From NCBI GenBank assembly GCA_900318175.1, contig ONJQ01000002.1, positions 141,423 through 205,422 on the forward strand: a stretch of 64,000 nt of DNA, in the 5' to 3' direction. This DNA is from an uncultured Bacteroidales bacterium. Its GTDB lineage: Bacteria > Bacteroidota > Bacteroidia > Bacteroidales > P3. Shown here piece after piece: positions 203 to 9,982 of the stretch. The first letter of the stretch is position 1. Each line of letters starts with the position of its first letter. The position numbers and the translations under genes are program-made. Below the pieces are notes generated by a model that saw only the letters and a list, made by a program, of their open reading frames with translations, was not told where the DNA came from and did no database searches.

Positions 203-1414
203 TTAAGAAAGTTCCTGTATGATTGCATTGATTAGCATAATGGTAGCTTGTTCATCACCGAATTCGCTCCTAAAAAGCAACTCTAATACTTCATCTTCTG
301 TCAACCCACTTTTTGAATAGTTGTTGTCGTCTTCATTTGGATAGAGAGGACAATTCATGTAATCTGGAGACTCCCACTCATATTCATGTCCATTTACATT
401 AACATTTATACTTAGGTCTTCTCCCATGTATCGGCTAAAGTTAATTGAGTAATTAGATCCTTGAATGTCAAAGTATCCAATCTTGCCCATTGCCATATCC
501 ATATACTCAGTGGAGTTCACCTTACTATTCATCATGGTTTGGAAGTCGTTGTCTGATTTTACAACTTTTCGAACAAGGTTTCGGAAGTAAACATTATTTC
601 GAAAATCAACTCTGTCATACACCATTCCAACCTCGATTGGGTTAGAGCCTTTCGCATAGTCCATAAGTACATAATAATACGCAATCATCGCCAATTGATC
701 AACAGACAAGTTTACTTTCTTTTCTTTGCTTAACTGGTTGTCGTACACACTAACGATGTGATAAGACGAGTCGATGATAAAATGTTTCTCCAACACGAAC
801 ACAGAATATTTGCTCTTGTTCTCTCTATCGATGGAGTAGTCTTCTACAATCGAAACGCTCAGCTGCCCGTTATTCAGCATTCTCATTTCGAACGAATCCC
901 ACCTTAGAGAGCTGTGTTTGCCATGCACTTTGAATGTTTTATCATATCTCTGGTGACACCCGATAACATAATCCCTGTCCTTGTTGTAAGCATCCTGAAA
1001 TCGTTCAACTATTGGTGCATAAAGGGATGCCAGCGTTACAAAGTCATTTTCACAGATGGCGTTACAGTAGCTTTCAATGATTTTTTGAACTGTAATCTCG
1101 TCAGGGAACTCTGTTACAACAGCATTTTGTCCCTCACTCTTAGATTTGATGCTGTGAATTATAAGAAACAAGCAAAGTGCCAACAGCAACACTGCTGCGA
1201 CAATGGCTGCTATTATAACGCTTTTCTTCTTGTCTTGTTCCTCTTTCTTTGCTGGCGCACTTTCTTGAATTGACTCCGAGATATTTGTATCCTCGGCATT
1301 TTTCTTTGTTCCTCGAATTACGGCAACGGCATCGTCAAACTCTTTTTGAGTCAATTCTCCAACATCAAGTTTGCGTTTCAATTCATACAATAAATTAATT
1401 TCTTCCTCTGTCAT
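203..1414 (-). CDS. Membrane-anchored protein with N-terminal SHOCT-like motif and possible NTF2-like domain
   Basis: Unknown function. The open frame extends to 1465, but I place the start at the internal Met at 1414 because the downstream neighbour begins with the same residues (MTEEEIN-LYELK). That leaves 403 residues. Residues 1-35 form a short helical SHOCT-like motif, followed by a Lys-rich linker and one membrane helix at about 65-87. Residues of about 100-230 could be an NTF2-like fold (inferred from helix/strand pattern and an aromatic-rich core). The C-terminal third is paralogous to the protein at 1476-2204, sharing VDFRNN and YEW-SP. It is the last gene of an AT-rich minus-strand cluster, 61 nt after that paralogue. 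Topology suggests a cytoplasmic N-terminus and an external C-terminal domain. Confidence 0.7.
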   Translation of the reverse strand: MTEEEINLLYELKRKLDVGELTQKEFDDAVAVIRGTKKNAEDTNISESIQESAPAKKEEQDKKKSVIIAAIVAAVLLLALCLFLIIHSIKSKSEGQNAVVTEFPDEITVQKIIESYCNAICENDFVTLASLYAPIVERFQDAYNKDRDYVIGCHQRYDKTFKVHGKHSSLRWDSFEMRMLNNGQLSVSIVEDYSIDRENKSKYSVFVLEKHFIIDSSYHIVSVYDNQLSKEKKVNLSVDQLAMIAYYYVLMDYAKGSNPIEVGMVYDRVDFRNNVYFRNLVRKVVKSDNDFQTMMNSKVNSTEYMDMAMGKIGYFDIQGSNYSINFSRYMGEDLSINVNVNGHEYEWESPDYMNCPLYPNEDDNNYSKSGLTEDEVLELLFRSEFGDEQATIMLINAIIQELS

Positions 1415-1475
1415 ATTTTCGAAAATTATTTGTTTTGTACATACATAAGTATACGGAACTAACAATCCTTATCTC

Positions 1476-2204
1476 CTATAGAAAGGAACTAAAATTAGGT
1501 GAAATCCATTCGTATTCGAGACCTCTTTCTTCAACTCTGATATTATAATCTGACTCGTTGAAGAATGAGAAAGAAATTTTGTATCCGTACCCATCAATAT
1601 CATAGTTTGTTCCACAAATTGGCATGTACCGAGTAGTTTTTAATACAGGACATTGTAACATATATTGATAATTATCAATGTCAGATACGATGTTACGAAT
1701 AAGATATGTAAACGAGATATTGTTTCTAAAATCAACAATTCCTTCTATTGTACACGGATATTCAACAAACACATTATTATCCCTTTCTTTCTTCTCAAAC
1801 TCTTCATCAATAAATTCAAAGGCAGTAACTGCCAACTGTAGATTTTCTGCATCTATGTTATTATGAATGTCCGTTGTACTTGTATATTGTTCTTGAGGGT
1901 TCTCAGTATCTGTCATTTCCATATTGTCATCCTCTACTGTACAGTCAAATTCTTTGTTGGAGTAATTGCTATGAATAATAAAAAATACAACTAACGTAAT
2001 GGTGATGATTGCGACGGCAACAATAGAAACCTTCTTCCAGATATTACTATTCTTATCTGTGGTGGTTGAGGAATTATCGTTAGAGGTTTTGTGTTGATTT
2101 CCAATAATCTTGGTTTTCTCTATTTCAAATTCCTCCTTTGAAATAATCTCTGCATCAAGTTTCTTTTTCAGTTCATATAGTTTGTTTATTTCTTCTTCTG
2201 TCAT
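1476..2204 (-). CDS. Membrane-anchored protein with N-terminal SHOCT-like motif, paralogue of the next gene
   Basis: Unknown function, 242 residues from the ATG at 2204. That ATG lies one base after the stop of the upstream gene (TAA-T-ATG), so the two are probably translationally coupled; the longer frame to 2264 would overlap that gene. Residues 1-35 repeat the SHOCT-like motif (MTEEEINKLYELKKKL). A Ser/Thr/Asn-rich linker and one membrane helix at about 58-77 follow. The C-terminal domain matches the end of the 203-1414 protein (VDFRNN, YEW-SP) but lacks that protein's central NTF2-like segment. It looks like a shortened duplicate. Confidence 0.7.
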   Translation of the reverse strand: MTEEEINKLYELKKKLDAEIISKEEFEIEKTKIIGNQHKTSNDNSSTTTDKNSNIWKKVSIVAVAIITITLVVFFIIHSNYSNKEFDCTVEDDNMEMTDTENPQEQYTSTTDIHNNIDAENLQLAVTAFEFIDEEFEKKERDNNVFVEYPCTIEGIVDFRNNISFTYLIRNIVSDIDNYQYMLQCPVLKTTRYMPICGTNYDIDGYGYKISFSFFNESDYNIRVEERGLEYEWISPNFSSFL

Positions 2205-2205
2205 A

Positions 2206-2664
2206 TTATTGCAATTTAGATATTTGAGCTTCATATTCAACTTGCGAAATAATACCAGCATCACGCAGTTCTTTCAATTTGGCAACTTTATCGACTCCCT
2301 TTATTTCAACAGGGACAGTCTCTTCTAGTTGTTGATTACTATTTGTGCATCCAAAGTGTTCCATTAAATCTACTTGGTTTTTAGCGATAACTCCAAGTAT
2401 CCTGATGCAACTCAAAAGAATAGAGATAAGAACAATAATTCCAATTATGATGGTAGCAGTTAAGAGATGGCCATAGTCAAAATAATAATCATTTTCTTTT
2501 TCTATTGCAAGCCAAAAATCATAAATACCATACCAAATGATTATCCCTACAACAATCCCTATTATAAAAACACTTATTCCAGGCATTGCCTTTGAGATTT
2601 CCTGCTTCTTTTTGTAGGTATTGATGCTTTCCTCTCTAACATTTTTGTTGATGTTGTTTTCCAT
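2206..2664 (-). CDS. Small two-helix membrane protein with C-terminal SHOCT motif
   Basis: The 152-residue product has two hydrophobic segments at about 28-58 and 70-98. It ends in a textbook SHOCT-like motif at residues 124-152 (LKELRDAGIISQVEYEAQI). SHOCT motifs usually sit at protein C-termini and are thought to mediate oligomerisation. Here the two following genes carry the same kind of motif at their N-termini. The stop overlaps the start region of the next gene, so they form one transcription unit. I infer that the three products assemble through these motifs at the inner membrane; nothing shows what the complex does. Confidence 0.7.
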   Translation of the reverse strand: MENNINKNVREESINTYKKKQEISKAMPGISVFIIGIVVGIIIWYGIYDFWLAIEKENDYYFDYGHLLTATIIIGIIVLISILLSCIRILGVIAKNQVDLMEHFGCTNSNQQLEETVPVEIKGVDKVAKLKELRDAGIISQVEYEAQISKLQ

Positions 2665-2706
2665 TTGATTGTGTTTTTTATTATTATTTTTTTATTCTAA
2701 TTTGGG

Positions 2707-3156
2707 TTATTCAAGTACTATTGGATGCCCTTCAATATCATAAATATGAATATTATCTGTGTTAATCCTGTTATCTGTGTCAATCCTGATTTCTGGAAGT
2801 TTATCCACTATATTTTTAGGTGGTAGTTTTTCTCCTCTCGGCTTTGCAATAACCTTATAGTATTGGCTTTCGAACGAATCACCAATTCTGTCGAGAGAGA
2901 TAAAACCTATTGATGCAAAATCAATGAATGTACTGTAGTTTAAATGCCTTGGATTTTGTACGATATCGACTTCTTCCTTATTCTCATTTTTCATTATTAT
3001 TTTTTCAATAAATCTTTGTAGTTCGGTATTTTCACTTTCATCAATTTTGTCGGGTATTTTTCCACCATTAGATGCAACATGGAAACAATAGTCCTTATAT
3101 TTAAAGAACCAATCAATGTCATAGCATCTTTGATAATCTTCCGAATATTGAGCCAT
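2707..3156 (-). CDS. Hypothetical protein, candidate partner/immunity protein of the deaminase-fold gene
   Basis: The 149-residue soluble, acidic protein has no recognised domain. It starts at the ATG at 3156, three bases after the stop of the deaminase-fold gene (TAA-TAT-ATG), so the pair is tightly coupled. In polymorphic-toxin loci the toxin gene is commonly followed at once by a small immunity gene, and this order and spacing match. That is an inference from context; the sequence alone shows no immunity family. A gap of about 42 nt separates it from the SHOCT membrane gene, so all five genes could share a transcript. Confidence 0.6.
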   Translation of the reverse strand: MAQYSEDYQRCYDIDWFFKYKDYCFHVASNGGKIPDKIDESENTELQRFIEKIIMKNENKEEVDIVQNPRHLNYSTFIDFASIGFISLDRIGDSFESQYYKVIAKPRGEKLPPKNIVDKLPEIRIDTDNRINTDNIHIYDIEGHPIVLE

Positions 3157-3159
3157 ATA

Positions 3160-3681
3160 TTAAAGATTAAAAATCTTTTTACAATTTCCACAATAGCTGA
3201 CTATTTCATCAGTTCGAGGTCTGAATGCTGAACTAAATATGATTTGATTTATTCCACAAGATGGATGATTTTCAAGAAGCTCTGCTGCTGCATGCTGTTC
3301 AGCACAATTCCCAATAGGATTCTTTGATAGATTACTATTGTTTCCAATCTTTCCTAGTTGATCCAATCTTTCTTTCAATGTGGAATTCGATACTATTTTG
3401 TTCATACTATAAGAACCCGAATGTCCGAAATGAAATAAAGGACGCCTTCTTCCTTTTAACGACTCTTCACTTACACAGCATAGGACTACTGCAGCAGGAT
3501 AATCTTTACAACGTTTTATGTCTTCTTCTTTATTATTAACCATTTTTTTCTTCATTAATCGTATTGCCTTCACACAATGACGCACATGCGGAGAATGAAA
3601 CAATACAATATCTAAATTCATATACTTCTGCATAAGATTCTGATTGTATATGTATGTGGTTTTATCTCGGTAATCAAACAT
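3160..3681 (-). CDS. Stand-alone cytidine-deaminase-fold protein (YwqJ-like toxin deaminase type)
   Basis: The 173-residue protein has the zinc-deaminase signature: a CAE triad in GNCAEQHAAAELL near residue 127 and a CGNC motif near residue 165. A hydrophobic strand (PAAVVLCCVSEE) lies upstream of the first motif, as in the deaminase core fold. The [HC]AE plus CxxC arrangement is known from cytidine deaminases and from the YwqJ and related bacterial toxin deaminases. There is no signal peptide, membrane helix or secretion/trafficking domain, so it is not a complete exported polymorphic toxin. It could be an orphan toxin tip, an antiphage nucleotide deaminase, or a metabolic enzyme. Zinc binding and a deaminase fold are well supported; the substrate is not. 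Confidence 0.65.
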   Translation of the reverse strand: MFDYRDKTTYIYNQNLMQKYMNLDIVLFHSPHVRHCVKAIRLMKKKMVNNKEEDIKRCKDYPAAVVLCCVSEESLKGRRRPLFHFGHSGSYSMNKIVSNSTLKERLDQLGKIGNNSNLSKNPIGNCAEQHAAAELLENHPSCGINQIIFSSAFRPRTDEIVSYCGNCKKIFNL

Positions 3682-3727: not shown

Positions 3728-5575
3728 TTATTGTAAATCAAAAGTTATCGGCAAGTTGAACTGGGTTCTGACAGGTTTTCCTTTTTGTATTCCTGGATTC
3801 CATCTCGGCATGGACTTAACAAGCAAGATGGCTTCTTCACAACAGCCATAGCCAATATCTCTTAAGCATTCTACAATTGTAATTGAGCCATCTTTCTCGA
3901 CTATAAATGACACATACACCGTCCCTGTTACTTTTGCATCTTTTGCCTGTGGGGGATATTCTATGTTATCAGCTATATACTTTGAAAGAGTTTCTAAACC
4001 GCCGGGAAACGCTGGGTCTCTTTCTAGTATATCTTCGCATTCACTGAGTTCCTTTTCAAACTCTGCATAGAATGACGCATATTGTTTCTCAATCTCTTGG
4101 CTCTTTTGTTTTAATAGCTGAAGTCTTTCTTGCTGTCGTTTCTCTTCTTCTTGGCTATCAAGATAGGCTTGCTTCTGATTTTGACTGTTAGGGTTAACCA
4201 GTTCTTTTGTTTCGGTTCCTGTCACACACTCATCATATTCTTTTTGATAAGAGACTATCTTGTCAGGAAATATCTCAAATGCCTCATCATATTTTTTCTT
4301 AGCCTCATCATATTTTTTCTGCTTTCGCAAATCCCCAGCATCGTATATTAGCTTATAGAATTTATTTATATTATCGCTATTCTCTTTCATGCTCATATTA
4401 ACGCATTCGTCATATTCTTTTTGATAAGAGCTCTTCCTGTCAGGAAACAACTTAAACGCCTCATCATATTTTTTCTTTGCTTTGTCATATTTTTTCTGAT
4501 TGACCAAAATATCAGCATCAGTAATTAGTATATCGTATTTATCTTCTTTATCTTCTTCCATCTTTTCGGCATTTTCAAACATGCATATTTTAAAGCACTC
4601 GTTATATTCTCTCTGATATTCGGTCTTTCTGTCAGGAAACAATTTAAATGCCTCATCATATTTTTCCTTTGCCTCAGAGTATCTTCCCGGTAGACATAAG
4701 TCTCTCGCTATAGAGATTAGTGTATTAAACATCATATTTTTGTCCATTTCTATTTTGCCTCCGCACTCAAGATATTCCTTCTGATACATAAGTTTCTTGT
4801 CTGGAAATATATTGAATGCTATATCATATTTTTTCTTAGCTTCATCATATTTTTTCTTTCGCAGTAAAACCTCGGCATCAGTAATTAGTGTATTGAATGC
4901 CTTTGTTCCGCCTCCATATAAAGACTCTGTATATAATTGCTGATGATCTACTTTTCTGTCCGGAAACAATGCAAATGCCTCATCATACTTTCTTCTTGCT
5001 TCATCATATCGCTTCTCTCGATATAAGTATCGGGCATCAGCTATGAGTCCGTCATACTTTTTCTCGTTAACCATGTTGGATACCGTTTTGTTAGAATAGA
5101 ATGTAAGTCTAACAAAACCTCCGTTGTAGTATGAGGCTTGCGAGGCCATCAGTACACCAACAGTCTGTCCATAATAGTTGAAATTTGTATAGTAGTACTC
5201 ACCTCCATATTCTTTTGCTTTATATTTTAACTCTTCTTGCAAATAAGCAGATATGGCATTTTTTTCTGAGATAATCCGGTCGTATGAGTCCGACTCAAGA
5301 AACCACTTGACAGATTCGACTTTGCCATTTTTCATTCCGATTGCAACGAAATACTTCGTAATGCTCATGTTACCATTGTCTTTGTAGTATACAAAGTGTA
5401 CGCCATCATTGTCATTAGTGTGACTGATGGAATAGTTGTGATTACGAATGATATTTTTAGCCACCTCCTCTGTCGCTCCTATTGGCACATGAAAGCGGAC
5501 AAGTCTTTTGTATTCCGTTTGAGCAGCCAACGTTTGGCATATTATCAATGCGAACAACAACACAATTCTTCTCAT
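3728..5575 (-). CDS. Secreted repeat protein with five TPR-like repeats and a TonB C-terminal domain
   Basis: The 615-residue protein has a signal peptide at residues 1-18 (cleavage after LAA), so it is exported to the periplasm. Residues 20-165 form an unassigned N-terminal domain. Five near-identical TPR-like repeats of about 44 residues follow at 174-216, 227-271, 284-327, 348-391 and 407-450, each with a KYDEAxxKYDEAFxxFPDK core and a YQKEYxEC tail. A Gln/Glu-rich coiled coil at about 465-515 leads to a TonB C-terminal domain at 519-615 (PAFPGG start, PRWNPG motif). TonB-C domains in Bacteroidota often occur in proteins that are not energy transducers; with no TonB membrane anchor or proline-rich span, this is likely a periplasmic binding protein. 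A GGAG stretch lies about 10 bases before the ATG. Confidence 0.85.
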   Translation of the reverse strand: MRRIVLLFALIICQTLAAQTEYKRLVRFHVPIGATEEVAKNIIRNHNYSISHTNDNDGVHFVYYKDNGNMSITKYFVAIGMKNGKVESVKWFLESDSYDRIISEKNAISAYLQEELKYKAKEYGGEYYYTNFNYYGQTVGVLMASQASYYNGGFVRLTFYSNKTVSNMVNEKKYDGLIADARYLYREKRYDEARRKYDEAFALFPDRKVDHQQLYTESLYGGGTKAFNTLITDAEVLLRKKKYDEAKKKYDIAFNIFPDKKLMYQKEYLECGGKIEMDKNMMFNTLISIARDLCLPGRYSEAKEKYDEAFKLFPDRKTEYQREYNECFKICMFENAEKMEEDKEDKYDILITDADILVNQKKYDKAKKKYDEAFKLFPDRKSSYQKEYDECVNMSMKENSDNINKFYKLIYDAGDLRKQKKYDEAKKKYDEAFEIFPDKIVSYQKEYDECVTGTETKELVNPNSQNQKQAYLDSQEEEKRQQERLQLLKQKSQEIEKQYASFYAEFEKELSECEDILERDPAFPGGLETLSKYIADNIEYPPQAKDAKVTGTVYVSFIVEKDGSITIVECLRDIGYGCCEEAILLVKSMPRWNPGIQKGKPVRTQFNLPITFDLQ

Positions 5576-5630
5576 TTTTTACTCCTTTTTTTCGCCGTTC
5601 TGTCTCCCGGATTGGCGGTTGCACTTCAAT

Positions 5631-5869
5631 AAAAAAGCATGGAGACAACGTTGTCAGTTTCAACTCTTGAGGTTTTGCCCGACCCAACTAGTCTGAAACG
5701 TATGAACTTTATCCCATGCTGAGGATATGCCGACACCCGAGGGCGTTAACATACCAAACAAGCAAAGGCATCGGTATCAATGTCGACTAGTTCTGAAATT
5801 GGGCAAATTTCAAGAGTGACCTTTTACAAATGCTTTCTTGCACCGATTAGACACACTCGCGTCTAATTC
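5631..5869 (-). ncRNA. Candidate structured non-coding RNA, about 240 nt, family unknown
   Basis: On the minus strand this segment folds into a nested structure with many perfect complementary arms. A 5' hairpin pairs TTAGAC with GTCTAA. An outer stem pairs 5830-5839 with 5631-5640 and ends in a run of six T. Inside it, helices pair 5810-5816 with 5664-5670, 5801-5807 with 5674-5680, and 5786-5792 with 5686-5692. These enclose a helix at 5781-5785/5731-5735 with hairpins 5773-5777/5751-5755 and 5738-5743, plus a hairpin 5723-5727/5710-5714. Tandem promoters end just upstream and no open frame fits. It could be a Bacteroidales 6S-like RNA, another regulatory RNA, or a long leader of the gene at 3728-5575; I cannot assign a family. 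Confidence 0.6.
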
Positions 5870-5874
5870 GGCTG

Positions 5875-5902
5875 CAAATATACACATTTTTCTGCAAATA
5901 TA
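5875..5902 (-). promoter_or_regulatory. Tandem minus-7 boxes of the structured RNA
   Basis: Two copies of TATATTTG on the minus strand, at 5875-5882 and 5895-5902, lie in a direct repeat (ATGTGTATATTTGCAG) offset by 20 bases. Initiation from the proximal box would be near 5869, at the 5' arm of the structured RNA. Confidence 0.6.
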
Positions 5903-6173
5903 CACATTTTTTTTGATACACGATACCTTTGGGGACAAAGTTCATTCCTTTTATTAAGGAATTAAAGGGTGTGCTAATGTGTAAGCATTTGAATGTGTGT
6001 GTTGAATGTGTAAATGTGTGAACGTGTTAATGTGTTAATCTTTTTAAATGTGGTAACGTGGGAATCCTTTGGGGATGTGCTTTGTTTGTTTACGTTTTGG
6101 TACGATTTACGAATTATCACATTGACGTATCTACACGTTCAGGGCTGTGTTTTCGGTGAATTCACTAACCGAT
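5903..6173. other. AT-rich spacer with degenerate GTGTTAATGTG repeats
   Basis: No gene is visible. The stretch 5970-6051 consists of loosely repeated units such as AATGTGT, AACGTGTTAA and TGTGTTAATC. The same words recur in the arms of the inverted repeat at 6392-6976 and in other gaps of the window (26208-26222, 58915-58936, 61557-61575). Confidence 0.5.
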
Positions 6174-6362: not shown

Positions 6363-6659
6363 ATTGTCAGTTTTAACTATACTCGTATTGAACACGTTAA
6401 TTCGTTAATGTGTTAATTCGTTAATCTTTGATGCGCCAAGGACTAACGCATTAACACGTTGTCGCATTCACACATTCCTATATGAGGCGCAGTTGCATTG
6501 TGTATTACAATTTAAATCGGCATATAGATTCAACCGCGAAGTGGCGTGTGGGGTGGGGACAGATATACTTATTCTGCGTGCCGGAGATACGCTACTTTGT
6601 TGATTGTTATGTTGTGGCGTCACTTCGGAAGGCATGGGATGGGCATTATTTCCCCCACA

Positions 6660-6814: not shown

Positions 6815-7067
6815 TTTTCATTGGACAAATGAACCAACAAGTATAAAACCACGGAGTAAGAAGGAGCGAACCTGCAGTTGATGAGATATTGAATGTGTGA
6901 ATGCGATAACGTGTTAATGCGTTAGTCCTTGGCGCATCAAAGATTAACGAATTAACACATTTACGAATTAACGTGTCAGTAGTGCTTATAAATGCAACTT
7001 TTTTTGTTCAAGACGTAGTTGCGGGGCGTTCGGGGCAATAAAAAGGGGTGTCAGCCGTTATGGTGCC

Positions 7068-8060
7068 ATGTTTATCGGTGAAATCATCTCCCTTTTTGTG
7101 GCCTTGTCGTGGACGGTCACAGCCCTCTTTTCCGAGGTGGCATCCAAGCGCATGGGCTCGTTGCCGCTGAATGTGGTACGCATGGTCATGTCGCTGACTT
7201 TCCTGGCCCTCACCCTCTGGCTTTTCATGGGTGTGCCGTGGCCGCGCTATGCCGACGGGCAGACGTGGCTGTGGCTCCTCCTCTCCAGCGTGGTGGGGTA
7301 CGTGATAGGCGACTACTGCCTTTTTCAAGGCTATATAGCCATTGGCTCCCGCTTCGGGCAGCTTTTCATGACCCTCTCCGCCCCCACCGCAGCCATCACG
7401 GGGTGGCTGCTCATCGGCGAGCAGATGCGCCCCTTAGCCATTCTTGGCATGTGCGTGACACTGACGGGCATAGGGCTCTCCATCCTCTCAAAGCGGGATG
7501 CCCCTGCGGACAACGCACACCATGCGCCGCAGCTGAAGCTCAATCTCCCCAAGCGTGGGATAGTCTATGCCAGCCTTGCCGGCATCTGCCAAGGCGGCGG
7601 ACTGGTGCTGAGCAAGATAGGCCTGAAGCACTACAATGCCGCCCTCCTTGCCGTCGGGTTGGACGGGCAGGCCGTGGTGCCGGACGCGCTGCTGCCCATG
7701 CCACTGTACATCAGCGTCCCCTTTGCATCGACGATGATACGCGCCACCATGGGACTGACGGGTTTTATGGCGCTGCTCCTGCTGCTTGAGAAAGACGGAC
7801 TTGCAAAGCTCCGCCACGCCGTGCGCGACCGCAAAGCCATGTGGTGCGCCTTCGGGGCAACGCTCTTCGGCCCCTTTGTGGGCACCAGCATGTCGCTGCT
7901 GGCCACCATGTACACCTCCACAGGCATTGCCCAGACCCTTTTCGCCCTCACTCCCATACTCATCATCGCACCCGCCGCCTGGCTTTTCCACCAGCGCGTC
8001 ACACCACGCGAAATAGGACCCAGCCGCATGAGCCGGAAGGGAAGCTACATCGTGAACTGA
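7068..8060 (+). CDS. EamA/DMT-family transporter with a replaced C-terminus
   Basis: The 330-residue protein is a drug/metabolite-type permease of the inner membrane with two EamA halves, about residues 4-140 and 163-315. Hydrophobic helices are spaced as in the ten-helix family. The ninth helix ends at FHQRVTPREI, but the family's final helix is missing. Instead the frame runs into GPSRMSRKGSYIVN, which is antisense to the duplicated end of the DUF5686 gene. The product therefore lacks its last helix and may be inactive. The substrate is unknown. The same tail, cut at the same base, recurs at 9747-9845. Confidence 0.8.
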   Translation: MFIGEIISLFVALSWTVTALFSEVASKRMGSLPLNVVRMVMSLTFLALTLWLFMGVPWPRYADGQTWLWLLLSSVVGYVIGDYCLFQGYIAIGSRFGQLFMTLSAPTAAITGWLLIGEQMRPLAILGMCVTLTGIGLSILSKRDAPADNAHHAPQLKLNLPKRGIVYASLAGICQGGGLVLSKIGLKHYNAALLAVGLDGQAVVPDALLPMPLYISVPFASTMIRATMGLTGFMALLLLLEKDGLAKLRHAVRDRKAMWCAFGATLFGPFVGTSMSLLATMYTSTGIAQTLFALTPILIIAPAAWLFHQRVTPREIGPSRMSRKGSYIVN

Positions 8061-8288: not shown

Positions 8289-9647
8289 CTACATTTCATC
8301 CATACTCAATCCCGCCATCTTGACCTCCTTGCTGCGATACTGGTGACGTTGCATCATCTCCACCTTCTCTTTCAGCCGTTCGGAACTGATTTTCTTCTGA
8401 TTACGCTTCACTTCGTAGGCCTCTACTTCTCCCTCCAAGGTCTCTGCGACAATATCTATCTCAAACTCGTCGCTCTTCCCTTCAGCGTTGACACCACCGG
8501 GTTTCCACCAGCCACCGATAATCTTATAACGGCAGCTCTCCATCATCTTTTGCCTGAACCACCGCTCCAGCGCGATGCCCGAGAATGTCGGGTAGTCGTC
8601 CACCATGATTTTCTCCAGTGCTGGCATGTTCTGTATCTCTATCAGCGACGAATATCGATGGATATACCTGAACCAGAATCGGAAGAAGTTGTCTTGAATC
8701 TCGTAGCGCACCGTCTGGCTGCCCTCTTTTGCGCCCACAGGCCTCTTCTTCTTGATGATGCCGTATTTCTCTTCCAGCATCTTCAACTGTCCACCCAGGC
8801 TGCTCACGCCCAGCGACGCCTCTATCTCGCTCTGCGTCACGTCGCCGTGCGCTATTTGGTCCAAAATGCTGAAATAGGTGCCGTACTGTTTGCCGAACTC
8901 CTGCACCAGAACCGACTTTCCCTCTTCAATAAAATAGCTGTCTCCGCCCGAGCATACATAGTGCAGCATCTTCTTCACATTGGTGCAGCGGTTGTTCATC
9001 AACTGCTCGACATATCGTGCCACACCACCCGTGATAGTCCAAAGTGCCAGCAAATCCTCGTTGGTATAGTCAGTCTTATAGTCACCCAGAATCTCCCGCA
9101 TTGTCTTTGTCGTAAACGGCTGTAGTTTGATGGTGCAGTCGTCGCGTCCAAACAGCGGCTGCTCCTCGTCCTTGAAAATCTTCTCTATCATGCTGAAGAT
9201 GCTGCCCGACACAATCAGACACACATTCGTCTCCTTCTTGTATCTGTCCCACAAATCCTGCATGTCGCTGAACACCCCGGCATTCACATATTCAAACTCC
9301 TGGAATTCGTCAATAAACAGCGTGAAACGCCGCCGCTTGCCAATTTCCAGTAGCAGCTGTAACAAGTCCCGAAAACCTGTGATACCCTCCGGCACATACT
9401 CATCCAATTTTGATCGCACCTCTTCGCAGTAAGTCTTCACCAATGCAGCCTCCGTTTTGCGGCCCACAAAGAAATAAAGGCTTGGAGCTATCTCTTTCGT
9501 TTCCTCCATAAGACGGTACACCAAACTTGTCTTGCCTACGCGCCTTCTGCCTGTCAGCACCACAAATCTGCTATAGTCCTCATAGGCTTGCCCCTGCATT
9601 TCCTGCAGTCTATGCATCTCCAATTCCCTGTCGTAAAACTTCTTCAT
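8289..9647 (-). CDS. AAA ATPase with C-terminal DUF234-type nuclease-like domain
   Basis: The 452-residue cytoplasmic protein is of the ATP-binding family widespread in Bacteroidota and archaea. Walker A is GRRRVGKTS near residue 33 and Walker B is LFIDEFQE near residue 110. A sensor-like GSIF follows, then a winged-helix region at about 270-320. The C-terminal DUF234 region (about 330-440) has EFEIDIVAE and YEVKRN, matching a PD-(D/E)xK nuclease pattern. Members are often linked to defence or mobile DNA, but function is unproven. The gene sits between two copies of a duplicated block and is probably an insertion. Its promoter is at 9697-9704. Confidence 0.85.
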   Translation of the reverse strand: MKKFYDRELEMHRLQEMQGQAYEDYSRFVVLTGRRRVGKTSLVYRLMEETKEIAPSLYFFVGRKTEAALVKTYCEEVRSKLDEYVPEGITGFRDLLQLLLEIGKRRRFTLFIDEFQEFEYVNAGVFSDMQDLWDRYKKETNVCLIVSGSIFSMIEKIFKDEEQPLFGRDDCTIKLQPFTTKTMREILGDYKTDYTNEDLLALWTITGGVARYVEQLMNNRCTNVKKMLHYVCSGGDSYFIEEGKSVLVQEFGKQYGTYFSILDQIAHGDVTQSEIEASLGVSSLGGQLKMLEEKYGIIKKKRPVGAKEGSQTVRYEIQDNFFRFWFRYIHRYSSLIEIQNMPALEKIMVDDYPTFSGIALERWFRQKMMESCRYKIIGGWWKPGGVNAEGKSDEFEIDIVAETLEGEVEAYEVKRNQKKISSERLKEKVEMMQRHQYRSKEVKMAGLSMDEM

Positions 9648-9696
9648 ATCTTCATTCTTTTATAGCCGTAAATTTTACCGCCATTAAATTTCGATA

Positions 9697-9704
9697 CAAA
9701 AGTA
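9697..9704 (-). promoter_or_regulatory. Minus-7 box of the ATPase gene
   Basis: TACTTTTG on the minus strand matches TAnnTTTG, about 50 bases upstream of the ATG at 9647. It is inside the segment bounded by the duplicated block, so the ATPase carries its own promoter. Confidence 0.5.
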
Positions 9705-9746
9705 CAACTTTTTTCTCACATGAAAGAAAAAACTTCAAAAAAAACG

Positions 9747-9982
9747 CTCCACAGGCATTGCCCAGACCCTTTTCGCCCTCACTCCCATACTCATCATCGC
9801 ACCCGCCGCCTGGCTTTTCCACCAGCGCGTCACACCACGCGAAATTTCTTTATCTAAGACCGATTACGAATTGAAAGAGGGTACAGCCGCATGAGCCGGA
9901 GGGGAGCTACATCGTGAACTGCAGGCAGACCTTGATGGCGTGTGGCGAGACGCCTTCGTCCAAGTAGGTGAGCCGCCGCACG
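9747..9982. repeat. Duplicated block, right copy
   Basis: The segment holds an orphan copy of the EamA tail (9747-9845), 39 bp of unrelated sequence, then the true 3' end of the DUF5686 gene (9885-9982). The EamA fragment has no start and is non-functional. Confidence 0.85.

Follow-up and report, generated by a model that had tools for sequence, protein, structure and literature searches.

A 64,000-nucleotide (nt) stretch of an uncultured Bacteroidales genome (contig ONJQ01000002.1, assembly GCA_900318175.1; hereafter the window) carries on its minus strand, at 5593-5872, an RNA whose conserved structure is shown by comparison of its copies. The RNA belongs to no Rfam 15 family, is of a so far unnamed kind, and is likely a phylum-wide cis-regulatory, riboswitch-like leader in Bacteroidota. 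By position it lies in the 5' leader of genes, and because of this position and a pairing that crosses its T run it is regarded as cis-acting. As a large folded leader before many different genes it would take two shapes and so regulate those genes. One state would combine the closing helix P1, the pseudoknot PK and the pairing of segment s1 with strand X; the other would form helix d from X and switch strand Y. The leader probably regulates its downstream genes through this change of shape. RNA positions below equal 5873 minus the window coordinate and are given in brackets in the following list of features.

5593-5872, minus strand: whole conserved leader RNA (covariance model; pairing downstream as far as 5602, hairpin J as far as 5593)
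5847-5866, minus strand: 5' hairpin P0 (7-12/21-26); 86.9% of cells paired, six of six pairs changed on both sides
5830-5838, minus strand: P1 5' strand (35-43); 92.7% of cells paired, A-U to G-C changes at the U tract
5810-5817, minus strand: 5' strand of long-range helix a (56-63), partner at 5663-5670; among the top pairs of the blind scan, and the swap test
5795-5811, minus strand: hairpin g with kissing strand TTTGCCC (66-72), partner strand at 5674-5680; blind scan and distant copies
5785-5792, minus strand: 5' strand of long-range helix c (81-88), partner at 5686-5693; 80.5% of cells paired, five of five counted pairs changed on both sides
5760-5768, minus strand: segment s1 (105-113), which would pair with X in one state; helix s has 88.5% of cells paired
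5725-5754, minus strand: hairpin i (119-124/143-148); five pairs with 88.6% of cells paired and one with 89.0%
5712-5721, minus strand: strand X (152-161), partner of s1 or of Y; helix d has 96.6% of cells paired
5671-5684, minus strand: hairpin f (189-191/200-202), which holds the second kissing strand; pair 189/200 is fifth in the blind scan
5632-5647, minus strand: switch strand Y (226-241), with the P1 5' strand, X or Z as partner; pair counts
5602-5608, minus strand: strand Z (265-271), which forms PK with Y; 90.2% of cells paired, seven of seven pairs changed on both sides
5593-5617, minus strand: hairpin J around Z, ahead of the start codon; stem in 81% of 72 copies

Conserved helices and compensatory change

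Read from 5869 to 5631, the minus strand folds with an energy of -77.1 kcal/mol (z -3.82), which none of 200 shuffled sequences equals. A preliminary description of this DNA, made from its letters alone, had seen a strongly structured RNA here, and both the folding energy and the homologues bear it out. No open reading frame (ORF) of at least 50 amino acids (aa) covers 5631-5869, as that description also held in stating that no open frame explains the stretch; three ORFs touch its low end (5396-5632, plus strand; 5457-5687, minus strand; 5482-5670, plus strand).

Copies of the RNA were aligned by sequence alone, which keeps the pair counts independent of structure. Alignment A7 holds 75 non-redundant copies with 60 nt of downstream sequence. 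In a first set of helices (P0, c, d and e), 89.2% of 1911 cells are paired and covariation reaches 0.535 (0.266 when shuffled); in a second (P0, P1, s, i and PK), 89.7% of 2477 cells are paired and covariation is 0.358 (0.216 when shuffled). For four of five pairing measures, none of 500 shuffles of the 75 copies attains the observed value, and the fifth, pairs changed on both sides, is reached by 8 and 18 of 500 shuffles. When partners are slid out of register, pairing falls from 89-90% to 30-51%. The fold is thus conserved with compensatory change: substitutions among homologues keep the pairings, rather than breaking them, which the preliminary description had named as grounds for abandoning a functional RNA.

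Searches that were blind to the proposed structure recover the same helices. The 21 highest-ranked entries of a mutual-information scan over 115 copies include pairs from helix a (57-60/205-208), helix c (83-86/184-186), helix d (158/232), helix e (179/211), hairpin f (189/200) and the kissing loop (68/197), as well as non-partner pairs that reflect clades. A stem search on A7 places c, PK, P0, d and e in the first five ranks, with many matches to the T run below them. Since A7 aligns helices a and b poorly, these two were tested without alignment, by swapping halves between 68 non-redundant copies drawn from the 128 with an anchor among 134. Two halves of the same copy pair with an energy of -36.1 kcal/mol, an advantage of 14.5 over swapped halves, and 93% of copies beat at least 95% of swaps, compared with 3% in the control. 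The same threshold is passed by 80% of 44 copies from other families and from viral contigs. A search expression locates hairpin f in 58 of 59 distant copies, 54 of these 58 with a perfect kissing-loop complement of at least 6 nt and with 13 different loop sequences among them; in the four that lack it, the expression may have picked the wrong hairpin.

A probable switch strand with three partners

Strand Y has three conserved partners over shared positions, with X paired in 96.6% of cells, the P1 5' strand in 92.7% and Z in 90.2%. In helix d, the pairing with X, eight of the ten positions are paired in 97-100% and the two ends in 87% and 80%, with compensatory pair types at several positions. 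P1, the pairing with the 5' strand, continues into the T run, where the pair four bases outward is A-U (44), G-C (14) or G-U (14), and in the pairing with Z all seven pairs are compensatory. Positions 229-232 of Y are common to d and PK, and positions 233-238 to d and P1; P1 and PK are compatible with each other, and X is claimed by s1 as well. From these shared Y and X positions it follows that the conserved choices are P1 with PK and s1:X, or d. One group of copies has a C in Y, a G in X (19 copies) and an A-C mismatch in P1 (19 copies); helix d therefore does not simply come along with P1. Distant copies have AAAGCG, GCGTGGG and CCCACGCTTT in these strands, so that both helices are kept with other letters. 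Three conserved partners of one strand, one of which excludes the other two, are the mark of a two-state leader and strongly suggest one here.

Several observations weigh against the reading as a riboswitch-like leader with two states. The P1 core AGCAT is nearly invariant in the 75 copies, so that the support for P1 among them comes from the U tract. Energy-based folding of these copies without pseudoknots favours P1 with helices a, b and c, while d or e attains a mean probability above 0.5 in 1% of copies; as d is almost never favoured by such folding, it would need a pseudoknotted fold or a second state. Pair 158/232 of d covaries with non-partners too, and clade structure therefore inflates the score of this pair. 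PK is weak in the swap test taken by itself (31% of copies beat 95% of swaps, and 36% of distant copies), the stem of hairpin J, formed in 43% of shuffles, has modest support, and the genes associated with the leader give no metabolic hint.

Strand, promoter boxes and the upstream element

Because of the long complementary arms, the plus strand of 5631-5869 is almost equally foldable (z -3.74); folding by itself therefore cannot fix the strand, which was assigned from promoter boxes and wobble pairs. Across eight helices in the 75 copies, G-U cells outnumber A-C cells by 437 to 133, an excess that points to an RNA of the minus strand; the ratio is without bias in helix c (17:18) and little biased in P1 (31:24). 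Three features lie ahead of the RNA.

5875-5882, minus strand: proximal promoter box of the -7 type, TATATTTG, read directly; start expected near 5869
5895-5902, minus strand: second promoter box, TATATTTG, read directly; apparently a local duplication in the window copy
5915-5943, no strand assigned: upstream element U, near-complement of RNA positions 95-110 plus 157-169, found by comparison of copies

The two boxes agree with the pair of promoter boxes that the preliminary description had placed before the RNA. By the consensus TAnnTTTG we take them to be of the Bacteroidota promoter type, and a box of this type precedes most of 74 listed copies. Element U joins the complements of two internal segments without the intervening hairpin. 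It lies before the promoter in the window's genus, where the unit starts at about 5943; other genera are, by eye, without it. Of the 67 copies in which both segments were found, 46 are non-redundant, and in 37 of these the pairing of U is below -15 kcal/mol, with energies of -28.6 for a copy's own segments, -25.7 for those of others and -9.3 for shuffled ones. Across 59 genomes of the genus, an exact pattern for U has seven hits, each of them immediately ahead of a leader copy, and a role of U as a general operator is rejected accordingly. A box of a possible distal promoter stands before U in 16 of 48 contexts, and U may act in transcripts that start further upstream.

The inverted repetition of internal segments ahead of the promoter, seen in this genus, would also suit a DNA-level element (a recombination site, an invertible promoter or the end of a mobile element) whose inverted repeats merely mimic RNA helices, as would the apparent relocation of the unit with its gene and the weak matches of model R2, built from 13 of the distant, other-family copies, to the opposite strand at two loci. 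However, the G-U to A-C ratio indicates RNA of one strand, the kissing loop and pseudoknot are conserved, and the upstream copy is, by eye, missing in other genera, which makes this explanation very improbable. Separately, low-complexity DNA with GTGTTAATGTGTTAATC-like repeats occupies 5960-6060, 6395-6470 and 6890-6985, between the leader and the next gene.

Extent of the unit and its T run

The covariance-model match to the window copy, itself among the model's own sequences, spans 5634-5872 (216 bits), and the leader measures 190-250 nt across the family. The T run is largely the 3' strand of P1. As to an intrinsic terminator or attenuator, which would have an unbroken U tract right behind its stem, the leading T run in 129 copies holds at least five T in 67, four in 11 and three or fewer in 51. 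The conserved unit runs past the T run to about 5593 and includes a hairpin whose loop reaches back over this run to pair, and PK extends 23-29 nt beyond the supposed terminator. The preliminary description had proposed a discrete RNA of about 240 nt closed by the T run. Its folded RNA at 5631-5869 stands, whereas the end at the T run does not, since the conserved Y:Z pairing spans the run and the unit continues to about 5593; nor is the discrete RNA supported, as 121 of the 129 copies with an anchor (of 134) have the start of an ORF of 55 aa or longer no more than 200 nt away, the arrangement of a 5' leader.

These results also bear on whether a free-standing, trans-acting RNA of about 240 nt ends at the U tract. 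Such an RNA would be consistent with the leader's own promoter boxes and with the presence of at least six T among the nine nt after ATGC in 94% of 129 copies. It is nevertheless improbable, given that Y:Z spans the tract, that the tract takes part in P1 and is broken up in many copies, that copies stand at narrow spacing ahead of mostly different genes, and that up to 11 copies with differing pairing regions occur per genome.

Distribution in Bacteroidota

DNA searches find full-length homologues in relatives and partial ones within the same genome. Model R1, built from 14 copies, detects the RNA in 98 of 120 genomes of the same genus and, across the family, in 108 of 190 genomes and 7 of 12 genera (same genus included). 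The window's genome has nine copies, and the maximum of 11 is found in one relative. A draw from the order yields 15 of 198 genomes, of which one is the window's own and the other 14 belong to 10 other families. With R2, a class-wide draw that partly overlaps the earlier ones yields 55 of 395 genomes (own genome and 54 others), and a draw from the phylum yields 14 of 296, including four uninspected ones outside the class. Searches of more than 40 genomes had stricter filters, so that all genome counts are lower bounds. Two leaders stand about 620 nt apart on opposite strands in one genome (L012, 1371-1613 and 2232-2476) and in tandem in another (L186, 1419-1661 and 1788-2039).

Contigs of a viral collection gave no match to a first, tighter pattern; a looser pattern, which also takes chance matches, picked 62 stretches, and R2 matches 26 loci, several of them near-identical. 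One of these contigs (L366, 2714-2949; 45.7 bits with R2) has a next ORF that begins like a prepilin, and this copy is perhaps from outside Bacteroidota. Phage and plasmid records searched by DNA similarity gave no match. A pattern scan of named genomes returned 52 stretches, of which 47 were retained and five dropped as chance: four lie inside a coding frame, presumably that of a cytochrome oxidase subunit, and the fifth (L137) scores 7.2 bits. The record titles of the retained matches are Bacteroidales or Bacteroidetes, many from ruminants; L138 alone among the 47 was rescored, at 146.5 bits.

Genes behind the leader and their apparent relocation

ORF starts lie at a median of 63 nt after ATGC, and 71% of the 121 are at 45-80 nt. 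The genes behind the window copy are as follows.

3728-5575, minus strand: first gene, 615 aa, with TPR repeats and a TonB C-terminal domain; starts 58 nt after the model end
203-3681, minus strand: further same-strand ORFs, candidate operon members by position

The genes behind the leaders are mostly unrelated, and some come from predicted conflict or stress systems or encode surface proteins. Clustering of the first genes of the 134 copies gives 20 clusters and 67 singletons, the latter including copies for which no ORF was found, and no Pfam family occurs in more than three of 56 non-redundant first proteins. Domains of first and following genes, each in one to three proteins, include double-GTPase, tubulin-like, vWA, kinase, TerD, FHA, zinc-ribbon, SPFH, dynamin, caspase, DUF4062 and LRR_5, and PADLOC adds single proteins of two more kinds, a type I methylase and a DpdF-like helicase. 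One paper treats double-GTPase, tubulin and vWA systems as predicted conflict systems, whose themes also include kinase and caspase genes (PMC7159879). The 75 following proteins were hand-picked from 272 non-redundant ORFs with longer or recognisable ones favoured, so that these themes are examples and not frequencies. By comparison, 75 upstream genes, taken at random from 108, are mostly housekeeping-like, with 120 families as against 52 for the following proteins; only 25 families per list were compared and lengths were unmatched, which makes this a contrast and no test.

Within the 20 clusters the upstream gene is common to 4 of 132 pairs of copies, and leader and gene therefore seem to relocate together as a unit. 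In one gene family, the leader is present at 11 of 18 loci searched (of 22 found). A guide RNA aimed at neighbouring DNA was ruled out, as a copy's own flanks give its variable strands no better match than do the flanks of other copies (130 copies; mean longest match 8.98 in both senses, compared with 8.93 and 8.90).

The apparent relocation raises the question of an adapter rather than a metabolite sensor, which would bind RNA polymerase or the ribosome so that relocated genes of unrelated kinds work in any Bacteroidota host, by processive antitermination or translation entry. The variety of first genes, the rarity of shared upstream genes, the presence of the RNA across the class and on viral-collection contigs, and the narrow ORF spacing would all fit an adapter. 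We consider it rather unlikely; the mutually exclusive conserved pairings suggest a switch, which a constitutive adapter would not need.

Three further observations concern the genes themselves. A recurrent, uncharacterised operon behind leaders has a small DUF6140 protein, after which come membrane proteins and one of the AAA or GTPase type (L091, 4389-7804; L186, 2106-3800; L049, 5624-5839). Small proteins with SWDTPS-like motifs (59-83 aa where whole) recur behind the leaders of one clade (L102, L107, L108, L103 and L237), and one of these proteins matches no Pfam family. Elsewhere in the window, minus-strand frames beginning MEKPGGGCDDEYGSEGEKGLGNACG occur at both 7488-7991 and 9652-9822: a piece of the transporter-like gene 7068-8060 seems to be duplicated on the far side of gene 8289-9647, perhaps through an insertion with duplication.

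Relation to known RNAs

Rfam 15 covariance models give no match at the gathering threshold over the whole window, and on 5560-5960 at E values up to 10 they give two matches, both far below threshold. Copies in other genomes give no Rfam 15 family over the RNA, the 6S models of Rfam give no match, and ARAGORN finds no transfer-messenger RNA (tmRNA) in the window. Known RNA families are ruled out by these Rfam and ARAGORN searches, and the preliminary description's placing of the RNA outside known families survives the Rfam 15 check. The likeness to 6S RNA, tmRNA, signal recognition particle (SRP) RNA and RNase P RNA is that of a large structured bacterial RNA; the leader differs from them in lacking Rfam or ARAGORN matches, in being multicopy in many genomes and in sitting before genes.

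Metabolite riboswitches exist in which the P1 helix shares a strand with the expression platform. The leader resembles them in its large fold, kissing loop, pseudoknot and U tract, and in a closing helix P1 with a 3' strand that can pair elsewhere. Unlike them, it has no Rfam 15 match, its genes show no common metabolite, and a third partner of its switch strand lies close to the start codon. Leader RNAs before varied long or foreign operons are known as put, EAR and JUMPstart/ops. Compared with put and EAR, which act in processive antitermination, and with JUMPstart/ops, this leader has a much larger fold, a conserved strand exchange and no Rfam match. Comparative genomics has also yielded orphan cis-regulatory motifs, described in two reports as structured leaders with covariation and unknown function (PMC2864571, PMC8040213). 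Compared with these, supplementary tables aside, the present leader is distinct in matching no Rfam 15 family and in being phylum-wide, 190-250 nt long and apparently relocating with genes. A prior description of this RNA was not found in the literature, most subscription papers and all supplements being out of reach.

Implications

The leader may be a phylum-wide RNA switch that moves with accessory operons and places unrelated conflict, stress and surface genes under one signal, such as an infection or envelope-stress alarm; equally, it may be an RNA passport by which foreign genes come to expression. Both ideas are tentative. If true, switch or passport would be a general control layer over moving genes, of which no description was found in the literature searched. 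Bacteroidota are abundant in animal guts, and a leader with a kissing-loop junction and a three-partner switch strand, spread over this phylum, would amount to a large regulatory RNA so far undescribed. Since all of them may answer to one signal, the leader would provide a handle on many uncharacterised operons, including those with double-GTPase, tubulin-like, vWA, kinase and caspase genes.
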